From a virus, in IMG/VR virus record IMGVR_UViG_3300035698_014097, positions 1 through 30,569 of that record: a DNA stretch of 30,569 nt; one strand, given 5' to 3'. Positions 4,214 through 30,124 of this stretch are shown here, in pieces. Numbering within the stretch: position 1 is the first letter of the stretch; each line of letters starts with the position of its first letter. The position numbers and the translations under genes were made by a program. The notes under the pieces are model-generated. The model was not told where the DNA came from. It did not search any database and worked only from the letters and a program-made list of their open reading frames with translations.

Positions 4214-4675
4214 CTATGGTGTATATACAATTAAAGTATGATCTACATCTGTTAATTCTATTTCTATAATATCAGATATAACTCCCCAATTTCCTCCAGC
4301 TAAACCAGCACCAATCATAGGATATCCGATTCTCTTTCCAGCATATACTTTATTAATAGTTTTCATAACCCTTTCAATTGCACCATAATTAACATCAATA
4401 TTTATTTTTGAACCATATCCAACTTGAGTATATGCATTTATAATAACAAACATGTTTCCGTTGCTCATAGGCTGTACATACGAAGTAAAATTTCCTAACT
4501 TTTTCCGATTTCCTTTTGTCGTTGTACAATCTGCCAAATAAGCACCTGGATATCTTGTACGTATTTGATCTGCTATACCTGCACCCATTGTATTAAAACA
4601 ATTACATCCATGTATAATAACATCAAAGTCACCATTTTCTGCCATATCAAGTAAATTTCCATCTAGTTGTTTCAT
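4214..4675 (-). CDS. macrodomain protein (ADP-ribose binding or hydrolase)
   Basis: A stand-alone macrodomain of 153 residues, the normal size for the fold. The first ligand loop is seen as GCNCFNTMGAGIA near residues 23-35, with the conserved Asn25. The second, phosphate-binding loop is GAGLAGGNWGVI near 122-133, and YPMIG precedes it. Macrodomains bind ADP-ribose, and members of this type hydrolyse ADP-ribose 1''-phosphate, remove ADP-ribose from protein or DNA, or act as antitoxins such as DarG. Which of these applies cannot be told from the sequence. A PARP, a NADAR and an ADP-ribose-type NUDIX protein elsewhere in the window point to work on ADP-ribosylated targets. AAAGGAAAATAAAA precedes the ATG. 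Confidence 0.9.
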   Translation of the reverse strand: MKQLDGNLLDMAENGDFDVIIHGCNCFNTMGAGIADQIRTRYPGAYLADCTTTKGNRKKLGNFTSYVQPMSNGNMFVIINAYTQVGYGSKINIDVNYGAIERVMKTINKVYAGKRIGYPMIGAGLAGGNWGVISDIIEIELTDVDHTLIVYTP

Positions 4676-10799: not shown

Positions 10800-10875
10800 T
10801 GGACGGGATACAGAGAGTTGAACTCCGATTGGCGATACCAAAAACCGCTGTCCTAGCCAATTGGACGATATCCCA
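10800..10875 (-). tRNA. tRNA-Gln(UUG) with encoded CCA
   Basis: Acceptor TGGGATA pairs with TATCCCG (U1-G72, in keeping with the weak first pair of tRNA-Gln). D arm GTCC-AATTGGCTA-GGAC, anticodon arm GCGGT-TTTTGGT-ATCGC with anticodon TTG, variable loop CAAT, T arm CGGAG-TTCAACT-CTCTG, discriminator T, then CCA at 10802-10800. A TATAAATA motif lies 11 bases before its 5' end. Confidence 0.93.
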
Positions 10876-10886
10876 TTGTGTATATA

Positions 10887-10894
10887 TATTTATA
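10887..10894 (-). promoter_or_regulatory. T4-type late promoter motif upstream of tRNA-Gln
   Basis: TATAAATA on the minus strand, 11 bases before the tRNA-Gln 5' end, so transcription would start close to the tRNA. No -35 element is needed for this class. Confidence 0.55.
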
Positions 10895-11699: not shown

Positions 11700-11774
11700 T
11701 GGAGCGGATATTCGGATTCAAACCGAAACCAAAAGATTGGAAGTCTCCTATGCTATCATTGACACCATACCCGC
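11700..11774 (-). tRNA. tRNA-Gly(UCC) with encoded CCA
   Basis: Acceptor GCGGGTA pairs with TATCCGC (one G-U). D arm GTGT-CAATGATA-GCAT, anticodon arm GGAGA-CTTCCAA-TCTTT with anticodon TCC, variable TGGT, T arm TTCGG-TTTGAAT-CCGAA, discriminator T and encoded CCA. A TATAAATA motif sits 8 bases before the 5' end. Confidence 0.92.
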
Positions 11775-11782
11775 ATTTTATG

Positions 11783-11790
11783 TATTTATA
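11783..11790 (-). promoter_or_regulatory. T4-type late promoter motif upstream of tRNA-Gly
   Basis: TATAAATA on the minus strand, 8 bases before the tRNA-Gly 5' end. It overlaps the last codons of the 75-aa gene. Confidence 0.55.
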
Positions 11791-13760: not shown

Positions 13761-13768
13761 TATAAATA
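13761..13768 (+). promoter_or_regulatory. T4-type late promoter motif for the plus-strand HNH gene
   Basis: TATAAATA on the plus strand, ending 7 bases before the HNH ATG at 13776. If it is used as in T4, the transcript would start almost at the start codon. Confidence 0.5.
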
Positions 13769-13775
13769 AAGGTAT

Positions 13776-14069
13776 ATGATTTACAAATGTGAATACCCAA
13801 ATTGTGGATATACGACAGAAAATAGATCCCAAATTCATTATCACCATATAGTCCCAAAAGAGCTAAATGGGAGTAATAACCAAGGAAATATGATCTATCT
13901 ATGTCCTAATTGCCATTGTCGTGTGTACGTTCCTAACTGTTCTAGTGGGATTCATTCTATAAAGAGTTCTACTTCGATTATCATAATAAATAAGCTAAAA
14001 TCTACTACTGGAATGGTATTAGAGTATATTGATCATGGAATTACTAATTATCATTTTTATTCAGGTTAA
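13776..14069 (+). CDS. HNH endonuclease (free-standing)
   Basis: The only convincing plus-strand gene. It encodes 97 residues: N-terminal Cys pair (CEYPNCGY), then HYHHIVPKELNGSNN and MIYLCPNCHCRVY, giving the HNH metal site with CxxC-type zinc ligands. Small HNH proteins of this kind act as homing endonucleases or as part of packaging enzymes. Its isolated position, opposite orientation and location among tRNA genes favour a mobile homing enzyme. AAAGG lies 3 bases before ATG, and a TATAAATA motif is just upstream. The end overlaps the minus-strand 53-aa gene by 9 bases. Confidence 0.85.
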   Translation: MIYKCEYPNCGYTTENRSQIHYHHIVPKELNGSNNQGNMIYLCPNCHCRVYVPNCSSGIHSIKSSTSIIIINKLKSTTGMVLEYIDHGITNYHFYSG

Positions 14070-14299: not shown

Positions 14300-14307
14300 T
14301 ATTTATA
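14300..14307 (-). promoter_or_regulatory. T4-type late promoter motif upstream of decayed tRNA-Val
   Basis: TATAAATA on the minus strand, 7 bases before the 5' end of the tRNA remnant, the same spacing as at tRNA-Thr. Confidence 0.5.
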
Positions 14308-14328
14308 CTTTCTTTGAATTTTTATTGA

Positions 14329-14402
14329 TGGAGCTATATGAAGGAGTTAAACCCTCGTAATCGGAATACAACACCGATATTCTATCGTTGAATTAATATA
14401 GC
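14329..14402 (-). tRNA. tRNA-Thr(UGU) with encoded CCA
   Basis: Acceptor GCTATAT pairs perfectly with ATATAGC, discriminator T and encoded CCA. D arm ATTC-AACGATA-GAAT, anticodon arm TCGGT-GTTGTAT-TCCGA (T-T at the loop end) with anticodon TGT, variable TTAC, T arm GAGGG-TTTAACT-CCTTC. A TATAAATA motif lies 7 bases upstream. Confidence 0.9.
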
Positions 14403-14409
14403 ACATATC

Positions 14410-14417
14410 TATTTATA
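14410..14417 (-). promoter_or_regulatory. T4-type late promoter motif upstream of tRNA-Thr
   Basis: TATAAATA on the minus strand, ending 7 bases before tRNA-Thr and just after the stop of the SH3-repeat gene. Confidence 0.55.
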
Positions 14418-16469: not shown

Positions 16470-17161
16470 TGGTATACGATTTAATGGCTCTATTTACTGT
16501 TGATGTAGCACAATTTAATTTTTTTGCTATTTCACATCCATTCATTCCATTGTTATGCATTTCCATAATTAATCGTCTATCGTATTTTTTTGGTAGTTCT
16601 TTTAATGATATAGATTTTTTATAAATTTCTTCTTTATATTTATTGAATCTTTCATAATCAAAGTGTTTTTTCCCATGACAATTTGCACACAATACAATAC
16701 ATTTATCTAACTCGTTTTTTATTTCTTCTTTTAATTTGTTTATAGATGGACACGTTTTTCTAGCTAATTCGAATTTTTTTTCTTCTGGGTCTTTATGATG
16801 AAAATGTAATGCTCCATTATTTTTATCGTATCCACATATTTCACATTTATCAGCATTTTTAAATTCTAAATATATTTCTTTTGATTTTGTATTTCTTGTT
16901 TCATGACCAATGCTATGTAATGCATAATGACAATTCCTACATAACAATTGACATTTATTTAACTCTTTTTTAATTATTGACCAACGAGATTTTCTATGTT
17001 CATTAAATTTAAATTCTTTTTCTTCTGGGTTTTTATGATGATATGATACAATTTCTGGTGTTATTGTTATTCCGCATATTTCACATTTCCCACCTAAATA
17101 TACAATTCCTTTAAGTTTTTTTAGCCCAAGACAAAATATAACAAGATTTCTGCTCTTTCAT
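16465..17161 (-). CDS. tandem HNH homing endonuclease, apparently frameshifted near its start
   Basis: Two HNH units in tandem: KCEICG...SYHHKNPEEKEF...CQLLCRNCH and KCEICGYDKN...HFHHKDPEEKKF...CIVLCANCH, each with two CxxC pairs and the His core. A C-terminal helix-turn-helix (NGMNGCEIAKKLNCATSTVN) would bind the target. Such proteins are free-standing homing endonucleases. The natural start appears to be the ATG at 17161 behind AAGGAG (MKEQKSCYILSWAKKT), but that frame stops after 16 codons at an A7 tract (17122-17116). The main frame continues from the same tract (KKLKGIVYLGGKCEICG) one base out of register. The gene may be a pseudogene, the victim of a sequencing indel, or use frameshifting. 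Translation from a TTG at 16947 would lose the first HNH unit. Its start region is held in a hairpin. Confidence 0.75.
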
Positions 17162-17206
17162 GATTCGAGTCTCCTTTATATGTATTTATACAAGGAGACT
17201 CGAATC
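17162..17206 (-). promoter_or_regulatory. RBS-sequestering hairpin with a late promoter in its loop
   Basis: GATTCGAGTCTCCTT (minus strand 17206-17192) pairs perfectly over 15 bp with AAGGAGACTCGAATC (17176-17162), which ends directly at the HNH ATG (17161). The second arm contains the Shine-Dalgarno AAGGAG. The 15-base loop carries TATAAATA (17190-17183). Read-through transcripts would hide the ribosome site; transcripts started in the loop would lack the first arm and be translatable. This is the arrangement known for T4 late genes and homing endonuclease genes. Confidence 0.85.
17183..17190 (-). promoter_or_regulatory. T4-type late promoter motif inside the hairpin loop
   Basis: TATAAATA centred in the 15-base loop, 22 bases before the HNH ATG. 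A start 5-7 bases downstream would remove the anti-Shine-Dalgarno arm and keep AAGGAG. Confidence 0.7.
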
Positions 17207-17214
17207 TATTTATA
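17207..17214 (-). promoter_or_regulatory. second late promoter motif abutting the hairpin
   Basis: TATAAATA directly before the first hairpin arm. A transcript from here would start inside the first arm and only partly form the hairpin. Confidence 0.4.
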
Positions 17215-17280
17215 TTTTTAATATTCCTTTAAATTTAATGGTATCGGTGGAAGGTACTTTACCACCCCGCACGTTATATC

Positions 17281-17288
17281 TATTTATA
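17281..17288 (-). promoter_or_regulatory. late promoter motif downstream of the NADAR gene
   Basis: TATAAATA on the minus strand 7 bases after the NADAR stop. The following sequence (17275-17215) can fold as GGTGG-N11-CCACC but shows no complete tRNA or gene. Confidence 0.4.
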
Positions 17289-17294
17289 CATACA

Positions 17295-18005
17295 TCATTC
17301 CTTTTCTAACTCATCTCGTACTTTTGTTAATATTTCACCTAACCAATTAGTACCTCTCCATGTATCTCTACTTAAACATCTTGGATCTTTGGCATTCAAT
17401 TTAATTCCCCATATAGCATCATACGGACTTGCTTCAACTAAAGTAGTTCCTTTTGTTGATGATAATGTGGATCTTAACATTATATTTTGTTTGAACTTTG
17501 CATAGTTAGCCGTGTACACTATTACCTTGGCTTTTTTATTCCATGCTTTTTCATTAAAATTTTTGACTTTTCTTCCTAATGCTTTTTGTTCTCTTGGATT
17601 AGTCGTTTCCATTATTTTATAGTATGTATCAAAATCGGTAAACATATTTGCCTTCATTGCCATCATATATTGCTCTGCACAATTATATGTAACACTATCG
17701 ACGTCAAAATCCGAAATATACCATTGACTAAACGGGCCACCATAAAATAATGTAAATTTTTCTTCTTGTTCTTGTTCTTGTTCTTTTTTAGTTCTAATAC
17801 TCATTTGTATAGTACAATTAGATTCGTCCGTTGAATTCGTAACCGACATATTAATTCTTTCATATTCACAAACAGCTTCCAATGCATCCAACCTATCTGT
17901 AATTTCTGAAGACAATATTTGTTTATCATTCACAAAATATTTACTAGTAAGTTCTTTACATTTAAAATGAACTTCTTTTATAAATTTTTTTACTTCTTCG
18001 TTCAT
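17295..18005 (-). CDS. NADAR domain protein (YbiA/DUF1768 type)
   Basis: C-terminal 155 residues match the NADAR fold: FTLFYGGPFSQWYISDF, then CAEQYMMAMKANMF with the conserved Glu, EQKALGRKVKNF, KFKQNIMLRSTL, TTLVEASPYDAIWGI and RGTNWLGEILTKVRDEL. NADAR proteins are N-glycosidases that cleave ADP-ribose-type bonds. Characterised members remove ADP-ribose from guanine in DNA or RNA and act as antitoxins to DarT1, and some phage members are known to counter such toxins; others act on riboflavin intermediates. An extra N-terminal stretch of about 83 residues ends in a Glu/Gln-rich linker and is not part of the core. I favour the ATG at 18005; one ATG lies 3 bases upstream. GGAG precedes it. It has its own promoter and a structured leader. 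Confidence 0.88.
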   Translation of the reverse strand: MNEEVKKFIKEVHFKCKELTSKYFVNDKQILSSEITDRLDALEAVCEYERINMSVTNSTDESNCTIQMSIRTKKEQEQEQEEKFTLFYGGPFSQWYISDFDVDSVTYNCAEQYMMAMKANMFTDFDTYYKIMETTNPREQKALGRKVKNFNEKAWNKKAKVIVYTANYAKFKQNIMLRSTLSSTKGTTLVEASPYDAIWGIKLNAKDPRCLSRDTWRGTNWLGEILTKVRDELEKE

Positions 18006-18025
18006 CATTCTCCTTTTTGTTTTTA

Positions 18026-19490: not shown

Positions 19491-20783
19491 TTAATTATCA
19501 AATTCTACTAAATATTTTATATTACACTGATGTAATGTATACACGATCATTTCATTATTCATTACTCCAGATTTACCTTCTTTTGCATATGTAGAATCAT
19601 ACCCAGACTTTGGAAATGATTCGTGACTTCCTTTAGCAATATACTGCTTTCCCATCGCAAAGTCAACAAGAAACATAAAACAATTTGAATCGTGGTTTCC
19701 GCTCCAATATCCTTGAGCATAATTTAATGCCTTAGTCGATATATCAGAAGCATATACACCATCTCCGTACATTCTACCCGTAACATGACTACTAGAACTA
19801 TTGGGTATGATCAATCCAGATTTAAGTATAGATAAACAATTCTCTATACGACTTCCATGCCATAGTTCCATTATATTTCCTATTTGCTTTCCTTTCTTTT
19901 CAAATGCATCATACATCTCATTTATTTTAACTGTATATACCTTTTTAACATCTAATGTATGTGATGTATGTATACGCTTTCTTGTTTTGTTATAGTAATC
20001 TTTTATACGATTAAATTCTTTTGTATCATCTAATATATCTACTTCTACATTAAATATATTTTTTGTCTTTTTATTAGATTTTTTAGTTGTAGGTTTAGAA
20101 CCCAATACATCTTGTAATGAAGCATCTAATGCATCTAATATCTGACCTTCTTTTTGAAATGCATCGGTATCAGGAAATATATATTCAGGATCAAGTTTTC
20201 GTTTTACTTTATGTGGTATCAACTGTACATATTGTTGAAATTGATCTACAAAATGTTTATTTGTATATTGACTTTTCTTTACATATGGCACTAATTCATC
20301 TAATACTACTCTGGCTTTATCTATACCCGTTTGTGTAATAATTCCTAATGGAGTTTTAAACGAACCTTTTGAACTATCATATTTAATTGTAGTAGAAGAA
20401 ACTATGTTATGTATATTCTTTTGTGATAGTAGTTTTATCAACTTAACTGTTTCTGTTGATTGTCCAGCTATTTGTTTTACTGCAATATCTTCTAAATTAC
20501 TATCGTTTTTAACTGTTATTTCGGTATCTTCATCTAATAATACTTCTGCTTTTGTATATCCTTTTTTTGGTGTTGATTTTGATTTTATTTTTTTGTTATA
20601 ATATTTTTCGGCATCGTCCATATCATCAAAACATTTTGGTTTCTGAAATTGACCTTTTCCTCCAACACGTCCATTATGTACATGTATTTCGAAATTATCA
20701 TATAACATTATTTTCCAAAATTTATTATTGTTTTTCTCTACATCTGATTTGATGTACATAGCTTGTTTTACTATTGTTGGCAT
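19491..20783 (-). CDS. PARP-type ADP-ribosyltransferase with WGR domain
   Basis: A 430-residue protein laid out like eukaryotic PARP1-3. Residues of about 8-65 form a WGR domain (FEIHVHNGRVGGKGQFQKPK). Residues of about 95-225 resemble the helical regulatory domain (QSTETVKLIKLLSQKNIHNI). The catalytic ART domain has the H-Y-E triad: ELWHGSR (His309), YGDGVYASD (Tyr344) and NNEMIVYTLHQCNIKYLVEF (Glu411). Such enzymes transfer ADP-ribose from NAD+ to protein or nucleic acid and release nicotinamide, and the WGR domain commonly senses DNA breaks. The glutamate favours poly- or mono-ADP-ribose transfer to acidic or serine-type sites; the target is unknown. A PARP of this type in a phage is uncommon. 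Nicotinamide released here could feed PncA-PncB. Confidence 0.9.
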   Translation of the reverse strand: MPTIVKQAMYIKSDVEKNNNKFWKIMLYDNFEIHVHNGRVGGKGQFQKPKCFDDMDDAEKYYNKKIKSKSTPKKGYTKAEVLLDEDTEITVKNDSNLEDIAVKQIAGQSTETVKLIKLLSQKNIHNIVSSTTIKYDSSKGSFKTPLGIITQTGIDKARVVLDELVPYVKKSQYTNKHFVDQFQQYVQLIPHKVKRKLDPEYIFPDTDAFQKEGQILDALDASLQDVLGSKPTTKKSNKKTKNIFNVEVDILDDTKEFNRIKDYYNKTRKRIHTSHTLDVKKVYTVKINEMYDAFEKKGKQIGNIMELWHGSRIENCLSILKSGLIIPNSSSSHVTGRMYGDGVYASDISTKALNYAQGYWSGNHDSNCFMFLVDFAMGKQYIAKGSHESFPKSGYDSTYAKEGKSGVMNNEMIVYTLHQCNIKYLVEFDN

Positions 20784-23681: not shown

Positions 23682-24194
23682 TTAATTATTTTCATATAAA
23701 TATAATCCTGCATATATACCAGAACTAACTAATTTTCCTTGTTCTTGTTTATCTTCTAACCAAGGTATTATACAATCCATTCTTACCTTATGTACAATAA
23801 TTTTTTCATTATCAACTCCACCACCTTCTGCAACTTTAATACAATCTCTGGCAATGTATTTGTGTTCTGTTTCAGTACTCATTCCAGGTGATTTTGGAGA
23901 TGTATATGCTAACTCCCAATTGTTAGAAGTATATCCAGTTTCTTCTAACAATTCTTTTACTGCACATTGTAACGGTAATTCGTTTTTATCATGATCTCCA
24001 ATAACTCCTGCGGGACTTTCTATAACATATTTATCTACAGGAACTCGATATTGTTCTACTAAAATAATCTCATTGTCTTTTGTTACTGCTAATATAGATG
24101 CTATTTCTCCAGTACTAGTTTTTCTTTCTACTACTTCCCAACCATGTATACTCTTTAATCTAAGAAATTTTCCTTCGTATAACATTTTACTCAT
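23682..24194 (-). CDS. NUDIX hydrolase, ADP-ribose pyrophosphatase type
   Basis: A 170-residue NUDIX protein. The ADP-ribose pyrophosphatase signature is visible upstream of the NUDIX box: VEQYR (46-50) and ESPAG (59-63). The box itself runs from about Gly66 to KELLEETGY (80-88), with Lys in place of the usual Arg at the first position of REUxEExGU. Enzymes of this type split ADP-ribose into AMP and ribose 5-phosphate; some also act on NADH or other nucleoside diphosphates. Here it could dispose of ADP-ribose set free by the macrodomain or NADAR proteins. It has its own promoter at 24278-24251. The start ATG at 24194 is preceded by GGGAAAAAA; a second ATG is three codons in. Confidence 0.85.
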   Translation of the reverse strand: MSKMLYEGKFLRLKSIHGWEVVERKTSTGEIASILAVTKDNEIILVEQYRVPVDKYVIESPAGVIGDHDKNELPLQCAVKELLEETGYTSNNWELAYTSPKSPGMSTETEHKYIARDCIKVAEGGGVDNEKIIVHKVRMDCIIPWLEDKQEQGKLVSSGIYAGLYLYENN

Positions 24195-27343: not shown

Positions 27344-28498
27344 TTATATTTCTGGTTCGTCTATATTATCTTGTAATTCGTCATCGTTTTCTTTTGCACT
27401 CAATGTTTCAAAATATCCTTCTGCTAAATCAGGATTCATTTTCATCATACTTTTTGCATATGTTTCTTTACCTACATTATCTACAGCCATAATATTAAAA
27501 AATTGTGCCATTGGTTCTTTGCCGATTATATCAAGATATTTGGTTAAACTTTTCATTGCAGTTACTTGCATTTTCTTATTTTCTAATAATATCTCTTCGT
27601 ATTCTTTAAACCAAAAGCAAATCTGTCTATTCATATGTATTATATCTACTACTTCATAATCTTTCAATGCATCTTTAACTTTAGAATCCCACTTCATTAT
27701 AACTGTATTAGCTCCAAGTGCTTTTCTTTTTTCTCTTATGTACATAGAAAATCTTGATGTTGCTGTACTTCCTACAATACCTTCTACTATTATTCTGAGT
27801 AAACTTTCATTGTATTCTAGATCTTTATTTTTTATTAATGTATTAGATACTTTATGCCAACTTCTACGTGATGGTTGTATGTCAGTAGCTTTTATTCCTG
27901 ATTTTGCATCTGTAACAGGATCTAACATGTCTCTATGTCTTCCTATAAAACCAATAACATGTCTATGTAGTTTCTCTCTCATAGAGAAATCCAACCATTC
28001 TTCGTGTGTTGGAGCAAACTCATATACATTAAATCTATCTAAAAACGCTGGATCAAATTCGTCTACTAAATAATACCCATCATCTGATAATGGATTTATT
28101 AAACCTATTACAATACAACCTTCAGGCAAATCTTTACCCATCAGTTTACGATTCAAAACCATATCCATAATACATTGCATTACTTCGGGTTTACCACGAT
28201 TCAATTCATCTAAAATTAAAACAAATTTTTCACCTTCCTTTTTCGGCCACCAAAACGGAGGTCTAAATACAGTATGTACATATCCAGTAGTTTCATTTTT
28301 TTCTCTATCTGGCAATCCTACAATATCACCTGCATCTGCCATTTGACCTACAAACAAAGTCTGTACACGATAACCTTTATTTACATAATGATTAGTGAAG
28401 ACTTGACTTTTACCAATTCCATGTATACCAGAAAATAATAAAGCTTGATTTGAAGGAGTGTTATCTGCAATTTGAATGCATTCTTTAATACTAGGCAT
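27344..28498 (-). CDS. MoxR-family AAA+ ATPase
   Basis: A 384-residue AAA+ protein. Walker A is GIHGIGKSQ near residues 24-32, Walker B LILDELNR near 94-101 and sensor 1 GLINPLSDDGYY near 132-143, followed by the FDPAFLDRFNVYEF segment with the arginine-finger region. The C-terminal lid is helical with an acidic tail (ENDDELQDNIDEPEI). MoxR ATPases work with VWA proteins to remodel or mature other proteins, as RavA-ViaA do in E. coli. Several large phages carry such a pair with no assigned role. A TATATT -10 element lies about 40 bases upstream. AAAGGATTTCG precedes the ATG. Confidence 0.87.
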   Translation of the reverse strand: MPSIKECIQIADNTPSNQALLFSGIHGIGKSQVFTNHYVNKGYRVQTLFVGQMADAGDIVGLPDREKNETTGYVHTVFRPPFWWPKKEGEKFVLILDELNRGKPEVMQCIMDMVLNRKLMGKDLPEGCIVIGLINPLSDDGYYLVDEFDPAFLDRFNVYEFAPTHEEWLDFSMREKLHRHVIGFIGRHRDMLDPVTDAKSGIKATDIQPSRRSWHKVSNTLIKNKDLEYNESLLRIIVEGIVGSTATSRFSMYIREKRKALGANTVIMKWDSKVKDALKDYEVVDIIHMNRQICFWFKEYEEILLENKKMQVTAMKSLTKYLDIIGKEPMAQFFNIMAVDNVGKETYAKSMMKMNPDLAEGYFETLSAKENDDELQDNIDEPEI

Positions 28499-28535
28499 CG
28501 AAATCCTTTCATTTGTGATGTGCTTACCTAGTATT

Positions 28536-28564
28536 AATATAACAAAGAATTTTCCCTAAGTACT
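28536..28564 (-). promoter_or_regulatory. probable promoter for the MoxR-VWA operon
   Basis: TATATT (28541-28536) followed by AA, as in the other early-type promoters, but the -35 position reads AGTACT, a poor match. It may be weak or activated. It begins just after the 91-aa membrane protein gene. Confidence 0.5.
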
Positions 28565-28839: not shown

Positions 28840-29420
28840 AAATTTATATCCTTTATTGATTCTACTTTAGTGAATGTATTGTTAAAATTGTTATTACATA
28901 TATTTATCGAATCGTTGTTGTACTTTGTATATTTATTATTTATACCGTATACTTTTAATCCTATTATAGATGACTTGTGTATATCTACAGGATTATCATC
29001 TGCTGTGACTTCAATTTCCAATTCTTGATATAACGTTATTTTAGCATCCGTTTTATGTTCTACAAAATGTATACTCTTAAAAAAACCAACACCAAAATCT
29101 CTATTTAACATTTCTACTGTTGCGATTTGTACACTCGGAGTTCTTGCAGATATAATGTATAACTCATGACCATCTTTTTTCCATTGTACTAATTTTTCTT
29201 TAGCACCATCATATATTTTCAAATTTCCCATATAACGAGGAGAATCAAAATGAGCAAAAATAAGATCGGTAAAATATTTTGGGAATTTGTTTATTTCTGG
29301 TTTGTTATATACCCAATGGAGAACGTCTTCTGTCTTATGTTCTAATCCTAAAAGATCACTAACTCTATCCACTACATCTAAATGATATAATGTCATATCT
29401 ATATCAATACTAATTTTCAT
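28836..29420 (-). CDS. HAD-family 5'-nucleotidase (NT5C type)
   Basis: A 194-residue HAD phosphatase. Motif I is SIDIDMT (Asp6 nucleophile, Asp8), motif II ISART near 91-95, then a Lys before EIEVTADDNPVDI, where the acidic pair of motif IV lies. These fit 5'(3')-deoxyribonucleotidase-like proteins, which remove phosphate from nucleotides. The tail after residue 160 is Asn-rich and poorly ordered. I start at the ATG at 29420, behind AAAAAAGGACACAAA; it overlaps the stop of the GIY-YIG gene (ATGA). In the NAD context it might also act on nucleotide monophosphates released from ADP-ribose, which is speculation. Confidence 0.8.
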   Translation of the reverse strand: MKISIDIDMTLYHLDVVDRVSDLLGLEHKTEDVLHWVYNKPEINKFPKYFTDLIFAHFDSPRYMGNLKIYDGAKEKLVQWKKDGHELYIISARTPSVQIATVEMLNRDFGVGFFKSIHFVEHKTDAKITLYQELEIEVTADDNPVDIHKSSIIGLKVYGINNKYTKYNNDSINICNNNFNNTFTKVESIKDINL

Positions 29421-30028
29421 TTTGTGTCCTTTTTTAATAATATACAATAATACTTATTCTTAAATGATTTATTTCTTTTTATACAATCTGAAACATATGC
29501 TATACTTGTATTAGTGTATTCGTGGCATTCTGTTAATGTACCAAATACACTAAAAGTATTATCAACTATATTGTAACATAAAACTGATTTAGCAGCATGG
29601 TTTTTTGTTCCTAGCTGAAATTCTGTTAATTGTTTCCTAACTTCTGGTCGTTTAGCTGGATTATTATCTCCTGTCATTAATAAACTATGTTCTGGTCGTT
29701 TTCTGCCAGTATTAGGATGGTCTTTCCCAGAATATCCTCCACAACCACCTTTATCGATATTATAACCTATATTTTTATTAAGTAAATCAAATTTAGCAAT
29801 CCATTTCGTTTCTTTTTCTGTTCTTTCTTCTAATGTACAATAATGATCCAATATTATTCTTCTAAAATTTTTCTTTTTATGTTTTTTAACTGATCTCATT
29901 ATATATATACCAGAACCAAAATATCTATCAGAAGCACTTGTATGATGATAACCAACATAACCCATCCCATCTAATAAACATACCGAAAAATAAATTATTC
30001 CTATGCATTCTTTTATTTGTGTTTTCAT
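29417..30028 (-). CDS. GIY-YIG homing endonuclease
   Basis: A 203-residue protein with the GIY-YIG core near the N-terminus (CIGIIYFSVCLLDGMGYVGY), Arg and Glu catalytic-type residues in YFGSGIYIMRSVKKH and ERTEKETKWIAKFD, then NUMOD3-type DNA-binding repeats (HPNTGRKRPEHSLLM and NNPAKRPEVRKQ) and a C-terminal NUMOD1-like helix-turn-helix (CYNIVDNTFSVFGTLTECHE). This is the Seg/I-TevI type of free-standing homing endonuclease. It carries its own late promoter and structured leader and is joined to the HAD gene by an ATGA overlap. AAGGAGTATTT precedes the ATG. Confidence 0.9.
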   Translation of the reverse strand: MKTQIKECIGIIYFSVCLLDGMGYVGYHHTSASDRYFGSGIYIMRSVKKHKKKNFRRIILDHYCTLEERTEKETKWIAKFDLLNKNIGYNIDKGGCGGYSGKDHPNTGRKRPEHSLLMTGDNNPAKRPEVRKQLTEFQLGTKNHAAKSVLCYNIVDNTFSVFGTLTECHEYTNTSIAYVSDCIKRNKSFKNKYYCILLKKDTK

Positions 30029-30053
30029 AAATACTCCTTACCAAGTGGTAGTT

Positions 30054-30113
30054 ATGTAAAGGTAAGTTTTCGGGTAAGCAAAAACAGGTTTATAACGCCT
30101 TGTCCCTTTACAT
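30054..30113 (-). promoter_or_regulatory. structured leader of the GIY-YIG gene (three-way junction)
   Basis: ATGTAAAGG (minus strand 30113-30105) pairs with CCTTTACAT (30062-30054), a perfect 9-bp stem. Inside, AGG/CCT (30100-30098 with 30088-30086) and GTTTT/AAAAC (30085-30081 with 30070-30066) give two short arms. A further small hairpin TACC-ACTT-GGTA lies between this and the AAGGAG. The late motif at 30124-30117 would start transcription at about the first base of the outer stem. It matches no riboswitch class I know. Confidence 0.55.
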
Positions 30114-30116
30114 ATG

Positions 30117-30124
30117 TATTTATA
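30117..30124 (-). promoter_or_regulatory. T4-type late promoter motif before the GIY-YIG gene
   Basis: TATAAATA on the minus strand, five bases after the stop of the 46-aa gene and about 90 bases before the GIY-YIG ATG. Confidence 0.6.

Follow-up and report, generated by a model that had tools for sequence, protein, structure and literature searches.

A start-abutting RNA hairpin with a putative T4-type late promoter in its loop at an HNH endonuclease gene of an environmental phage

A hairpin over the ribosome site has been described for the homing endonuclease genes I-TevI, I-TevII, I-TevIII, segB and Aeh1 mobE (PMC2988022), and a corresponding arrangement for T4 e, soc, 49 and I-TevI (PMC3014915). 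SegB is a tRNA-array endonuclease that cuts inside tRNA genes at RAWTSGAAC and drives tRNA gene amplification in T4 and T6 against tRNA-cutting defences (PMC13096335). As a control on T4 sequence, the hairpin together with a late-type box was recovered for soc, e, I-TevII and segB, with CATAAATA in the segB leader and CCTCGTATAAATATGAATACGAGG before the I-TevII ATG. The same combination was not recovered for mobB, mobC, mobD, segA and segF. The precedent invoked in the first-pass annotation of the present DNA (e, soc and I-TevI) is documented in both earlier papers, PMC2988022 and PMC3014915, and the anatomy of e and soc is visible in the T4 sequence itself.

The element analyzed here lies in a 30,569-nucleotide viral stretch (hereafter the window) and belongs to this already known kind of regulatory device. 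It shares with the I-TevI, I-TevII and I-TevIII leaders a hairpin over the ribosome site, a promoter whose RNA would lack the 5' arm, and an endonuclease gene downstream; unlike those intron endonucleases, the window gene is free-standing, encodes an HNH-HNH-HTH protein and has a stem that abuts the ATG. T4 segB and Aeh1 mobE, too, are free-standing genes for homing endonucleases in which a hairpin covers the ribosome site (PMC2988022). The segB gene lies in the T4 tRNA region, as most relatives of the window gene lie in tRNA arrays, but SegB is a GIY-YIG enzyme, whereas MobE is an HNH protein whose gene lies in a ribonucleotide reductase gene. In T4 e and soc, as is proposed for the window, read-through RNA is closed by the hairpin and TATAAATA lies near the ribosome site (PMC3014915), although these are lysis and capsid genes with shorter, less perfect stems. 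That the window element would work like the T4 leader hairpins is well supported, as a likeness of arrangement. The features of the locus, all on the minus strand, are as follows.

17162–17206, minus strand: perfect inverted repeat, predicted RNA hairpin, with 15-bp arms and a 15-nt loop; covariation with six relatives
17159–17161, minus strand: ATG start codon of the HNH gene, directly abutting the stem with zero gap; N-terminus aligns with homologues
17183–17190, minus strand: TATAAATA in the hairpin loop, a putative T4-type late promoter; transcript start expected at ~17177 by inference from T4
17207–17214, minus strand: second copy of TATAAATA, at the hairpin's 5' foot; the hairpin would still form in RNA begun here
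17281–17288, minus strand: third TATAAATA, a sequence match just past the NADAR stop codon
16465–17157, minus strand: HNH-HNH-HTH endonuclease coding frame, 230 codons without a start of its own
17113–17125, minus strand: GCTAAAAAAACTT with an A7 run, one A above the homologue-implied A6, interrupting the frame downstream of the ATG and ahead of the HNH domains
17295–18008, minus strand: co-directional gene with a NADAR domain, lying upstream; possible origin of read-through RNA

The hairpin and its predicted switch

The repeat at 17162–17206 is a real, non-random structure. It is the longest perfect inverted repeat in the window and the sole one of at least 13 bp, the runner-up having 12 bp. 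Its RNA fold of −27.7 kcal/mol compares with a shuffled mean of −9.1 (z −7.7), and none of 200 shuffles was as good. On a score for start-abutting repeats that overlooks bulged stems, the start at 17161 reached 15, while every other ORF start in the window scored at most 7. The minus strand reads TATAAATAGATTCGAGTCTCCTTGTATAAATACATATAAAGGAGACTCGAATCATG across the region, with GTATAAATACATATA as the loop and AAGGAGACTCGAATC as the 3' arm, which contains the Shine-Dalgarno sequence AAGGAG. The first-pass annotation had described exactly this anatomy, and each part was found as described: the arms are perfect, AAGGAG lies in one of them with the ATG at 17161 right after it, and the promoter-like sequence in the loop is TATAAATA, at 17190–17183. 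No Rfam family reached its gathering score at the site. A weak sub-threshold match to RT-14 over 17162–17291 (33.3 bits, cutoff 48.1) was missing from ten homologous loci and was treated as chance.

Two features of the T4-type late-start hairpins are seen here at the sequence level, namely a Shine-Dalgarno site that is paired in long RNA and a late promoter sequence inside the structure, from which RNA would lack the 5' arm. The predicted mean unpaired probability of AAGGAG was 0.09 both in long RNA and in RNA from the box at 17214, against 0.59 in RNA begun at 17177, a start point assumed from T4. By these predicted folds the ribosome site would be freed solely by the loop box. The hairpin would close the HNH gene start in every RNA entering from upstream; RNA polymerase at a T4-type late promoter in the loop would start just ahead of AAGGAG, and the resulting RNA, omitting the 5' arm, would leave the ribosome site free, so that probably only RNAs begun late in infection would be translated. 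An RNA hairpin that closes the HNH start and has a T4-type late promoter within the loop is, on present sequence evidence, the best explanation of the locus and a probable one. We infer that the loop box is active, with activity late in infection, and that long RNAs go untranslated. The earlier claim that long RNA is silent and loop-started RNA free fits the predicted folds, but not every late RNA would be freed, because RNA begun at 17214 would still fold the hairpin.

The boxes at 17214 and 17288, upstream of the hairpin, had been missed by the first-pass annotation. On the coding strand of the window, TATAAATA occurs 16 times against about seven expected, and among 8-mers in upstream regions it has the strongest strand bias both in the window (4:0) and in G001 (24:1), a 202.5-kb genome and the one relative that turned up for the AAA ATPase gene of the window (47% identity). 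In G001 the box lies mostly 15–45 nt before genes of a long forward-strand block, and this genome encodes homologues of the T4 Gp23 capsid protein (E 4e-82) and of gp55 (E 1e-10). The sigma factor encoded in the window had been called late-type; it matches phrog_351, shows no similarity to gp55 and was rejected as a T4 late sigma factor. G001 has a phrog_351-type homologue too (E 2e-35), and no gp55-type late sigma gene was seen in the 30.6-kb window fragment.

Start-abutting hairpins in the homologue family

Homologues were collected from scans of IMG/VR and huge-phage records. The full-length double-HNH/HTH homologues sit mostly inside tRNA arrays of large phages, and almost all of them have an inverted repeat abutting the ATG, with stems that differ but compensate. 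The element TATAAATACATATAAAGGAG is common to L078 and the window. Three further leaders read as follows.

L077: 5' arm AAGTTCGTTTTTATTTT, loop TTAATATATAACT, 3' arm AAAATAGAAACGAACTT
L082: 5' arm AGTTCGTATTTTTATTT, loop AATATATAC, 3' arm AAATAAAAATACGAACT
L084: 5' arm ATTTCGGGATCTTTTT, loop GGATAAATAATT, 3' arm AAAAGGATCCCGAAAT

Mean arm pairing was 11.5 for a phage's own arms and 5.8 when arms were swapped between phages, a difference matched in 0 of 20,000 permutations; L085, L170 and L167 were exceptions, with pairing no better than cross-phage pairing. In an alignment of seven members, 97% of cells pair and both sides have changed in six of the ten pairs. Covariation among these alignable members was 0.55, compared with 0.21 when shuffled and at most 0.17 when the alignment was slid. 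Contig G004 (L255) carries three close paralogous HNH genes (starts 3801, 6688 and 8187, minus strand), at each of which a separate hairpin abuts the start and the arms show compensating changes. A 19-bp perfect repeat is present at L362, a locus fetched only once the other tests were done. The compensating changes across the family show that pairing has been kept, with the caveat that matched arm changes would also be expected of a dyad DNA site that a dimer binds.

Among control ORF starts from the same genomes, 31 of 1178 scored at least 9, nearly all of them in AT-rich, Shine-Dalgarno-poor genomes. Within Shine-Dalgarno-using genomes this score was reached by eight of 11 family HNH genes but by only one of about 530 control starts. 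No start-abutting hairpin was found in 40 cellular HNH genes, and short single-HNH phage genes mostly had none (3/95 scoring at least 9). A separate short-HNH subgroup (L095, L103, L130, L132, L137 and others) has an ATG-abutting hairpin in which TATAAATA overlaps the 5' arm.

The leaders fall into two classes by Shine-Dalgarno use. In genomes where 31–63% of genes use a Shine-Dalgarno site, most family leaders contain NATAAATA, a sequence with strand bias in the regions upstream of genes in those genomes. Across the family, NATAAATA followed by a Shine-Dalgarno-like site was found in nine of 22 leaders against 0.06 expected in shuffles, with 19–26 nt from NATAAATA to the ATG. In AT-rich genomes with 1–8% Shine-Dalgarno use, the loops hold a ATATATAC-like sequence and the hairpin is kept. 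The strand bias of NATAAATA in these genomes is little or none (18:14 in G002, 4:4 in W01, but 36:17 in G006) and that of the ATATATAC-like sequence is weak, and a universal loop promoter was rejected on these grounds. The sequences no more than suggest that every loop holds its own phage's promoter. Since the AT-rich class keeps the hairpin, the hairpin is the constant part, while the box and the Shine-Dalgarno site vary by phage. Judged from the leader sequences, the T4-type box is not a universal part of hairpin leaders, because Shine-Dalgarno-poor relatives keep the hairpin without NATAAATA or a Shine-Dalgarno site.

In the open-access literature searched, we did not find the family-wide conservation of the start hairpin described. 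A regulatory device familiar from a few T4-group genes is thereby extended to an entire family of selfish endonucleases carried by large environmental phages. Since SegB drives tRNA gene amplification, timing control of tRNA-array endonucleases may matter for the way in which phages manage these arrays.

The broken reading frame and alternative explanations

In the encoded protein, two HNH domains are followed by a C-terminal HTH (PHROG HNH families down to 9e-36, Pfam HNH, HTH_38), the combination of nuclease and DNA-binding module that marks an HNH homing endonuclease. In the record no intact frame runs from the start codon to these domains, the break lying at the A7 run. The frame of the ATG at 17161 translates to MKEQKSCYILSWAKKT*, ending after 16 codons, and the HNH frame from 17157 to 16465 contains no ATG, GTG or TTG before 16947 (residue 71). 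The homologues begin with MNKSDNSYVLRWTKK-IKAIELLGG in L078 (MNKSDNSYVLRWTKK/IKAIELLGGKCEHCG) and MKTKREYAYILAWNKK-IKAINLLGG in L079 (MKTKREYAYILAWNKK/IKAINLLGGKCEKCG). Because these N-termini align with it, the 16-codon piece is taken as the true N-terminus and 17161 as the right start; the same homologues imply A6, so the extra A in GCTAAAAAAACTT separates the N-terminus from the HNH domains. Assigning AAGGAG and the ATG to the HNH gene, as had been done previously, is borne out by where the homologues start, but the ATG and the HNH domains are in different frames in this record. From the sequence, the gene would be either damaged by mutation or affected by a wrong base call, and no second copy with A6 or A7 was found in the viral contigs searched.

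The A7-run frameshift and the lack of a second copy in viral contigs would fit a pseudogene whose hairpin is a functionless relic here. We regard this as a minority possibility, given that the stem is a perfect 15 bp with box and Shine-Dalgarno site intact and that HNH and HTH models match the remaining 230-codon frame, which is open; a homopolymer miscall would look identical. It is highly improbable that the repeat is a transcription terminator or the end of a mobile element. A perfect inverted repeat between genes could suggest either, but no T-run follows the stem and no terminator-like site was detected, by which the terminator was rejected, and in other phages this gene has repeats of unrelated sequence at its start codon.

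The repeat might instead act mainly as a DNA operator, the endonuclease binding half-sites that flank the promoter and repressing its own transcription, a role that may coexist with one in RNA. I-TevI sets a precedent, as it autorepresses at an operator resembling its homing site. Family members sit in tRNA arrays, and their arms are often T-arm-like: [AG]TTC[AG]NN[CT]C occurs in eight of 22 outer arms against 0.17 in shuffles, and the SegB cleavage site in tRNA genes, RAWTSGAAC (PMC13096335), resembles the reverse complement of this motif. We nevertheless consider a mainly operator role unlikely: the arms reach 19 bp with loops of about 4 to 30 nt, the inner stem sequence is not conserved, the seven-row alignment contains G-U pairs, and the 3' arm runs up to the ATG. 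A tentative proposal, which we would not expect to hold in full, joins both roles in a dual switch at the start of tRNA-array HNH genes, where arms mimicking the tRNA T-arm would serve as autorepression operator and as RNA closure, and the loop would hold the host phage's promoter box (NATAAATA, or a TTWATATATAC-like sequence in AT-rich phages with low Shine-Dalgarno use). Under a dual switch, the T-arm would likely be the enzyme's target.

Other sequence features of the window

Several further boxes and genes were recorded. TATAAATA lies shortly upstream of window tRNA genes (10800–10894, 11700–11790 and 14300–14417) and also precedes tRNA-like sequence in G001; from this placement, the tRNA genes may have late-type promoters of their own. 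It also lies seven nt before the ATG of a second small HNH gene (13761–14069, plus strand) and ~88 nt upstream of the start of an endonuclease-like ORF (29417–30124), which is GIY-YIG-like by eye and has no Pfam match. At 28485–28537, the AAA ATPase gene (start 28498, minus strand) has its ribosome site and ATG in the loop of an 11-bp perfect inverted repeat. The window also carries an NAD/ADP-ribose gene set (433–2269, 4214–4675, 17295–18008, 19491–20783 and 23682–24194), whose members are a nicotinate/nicotinamide phosphoribosyltransferase, a nicotinamidase-like ORF, a macro domain, NADAR, WGR-PARP and a Nudix-like ORF, assigned by Pfam or PHROG matches except for the nicotinamidase and Nudix ORFs, which were judged by eye.
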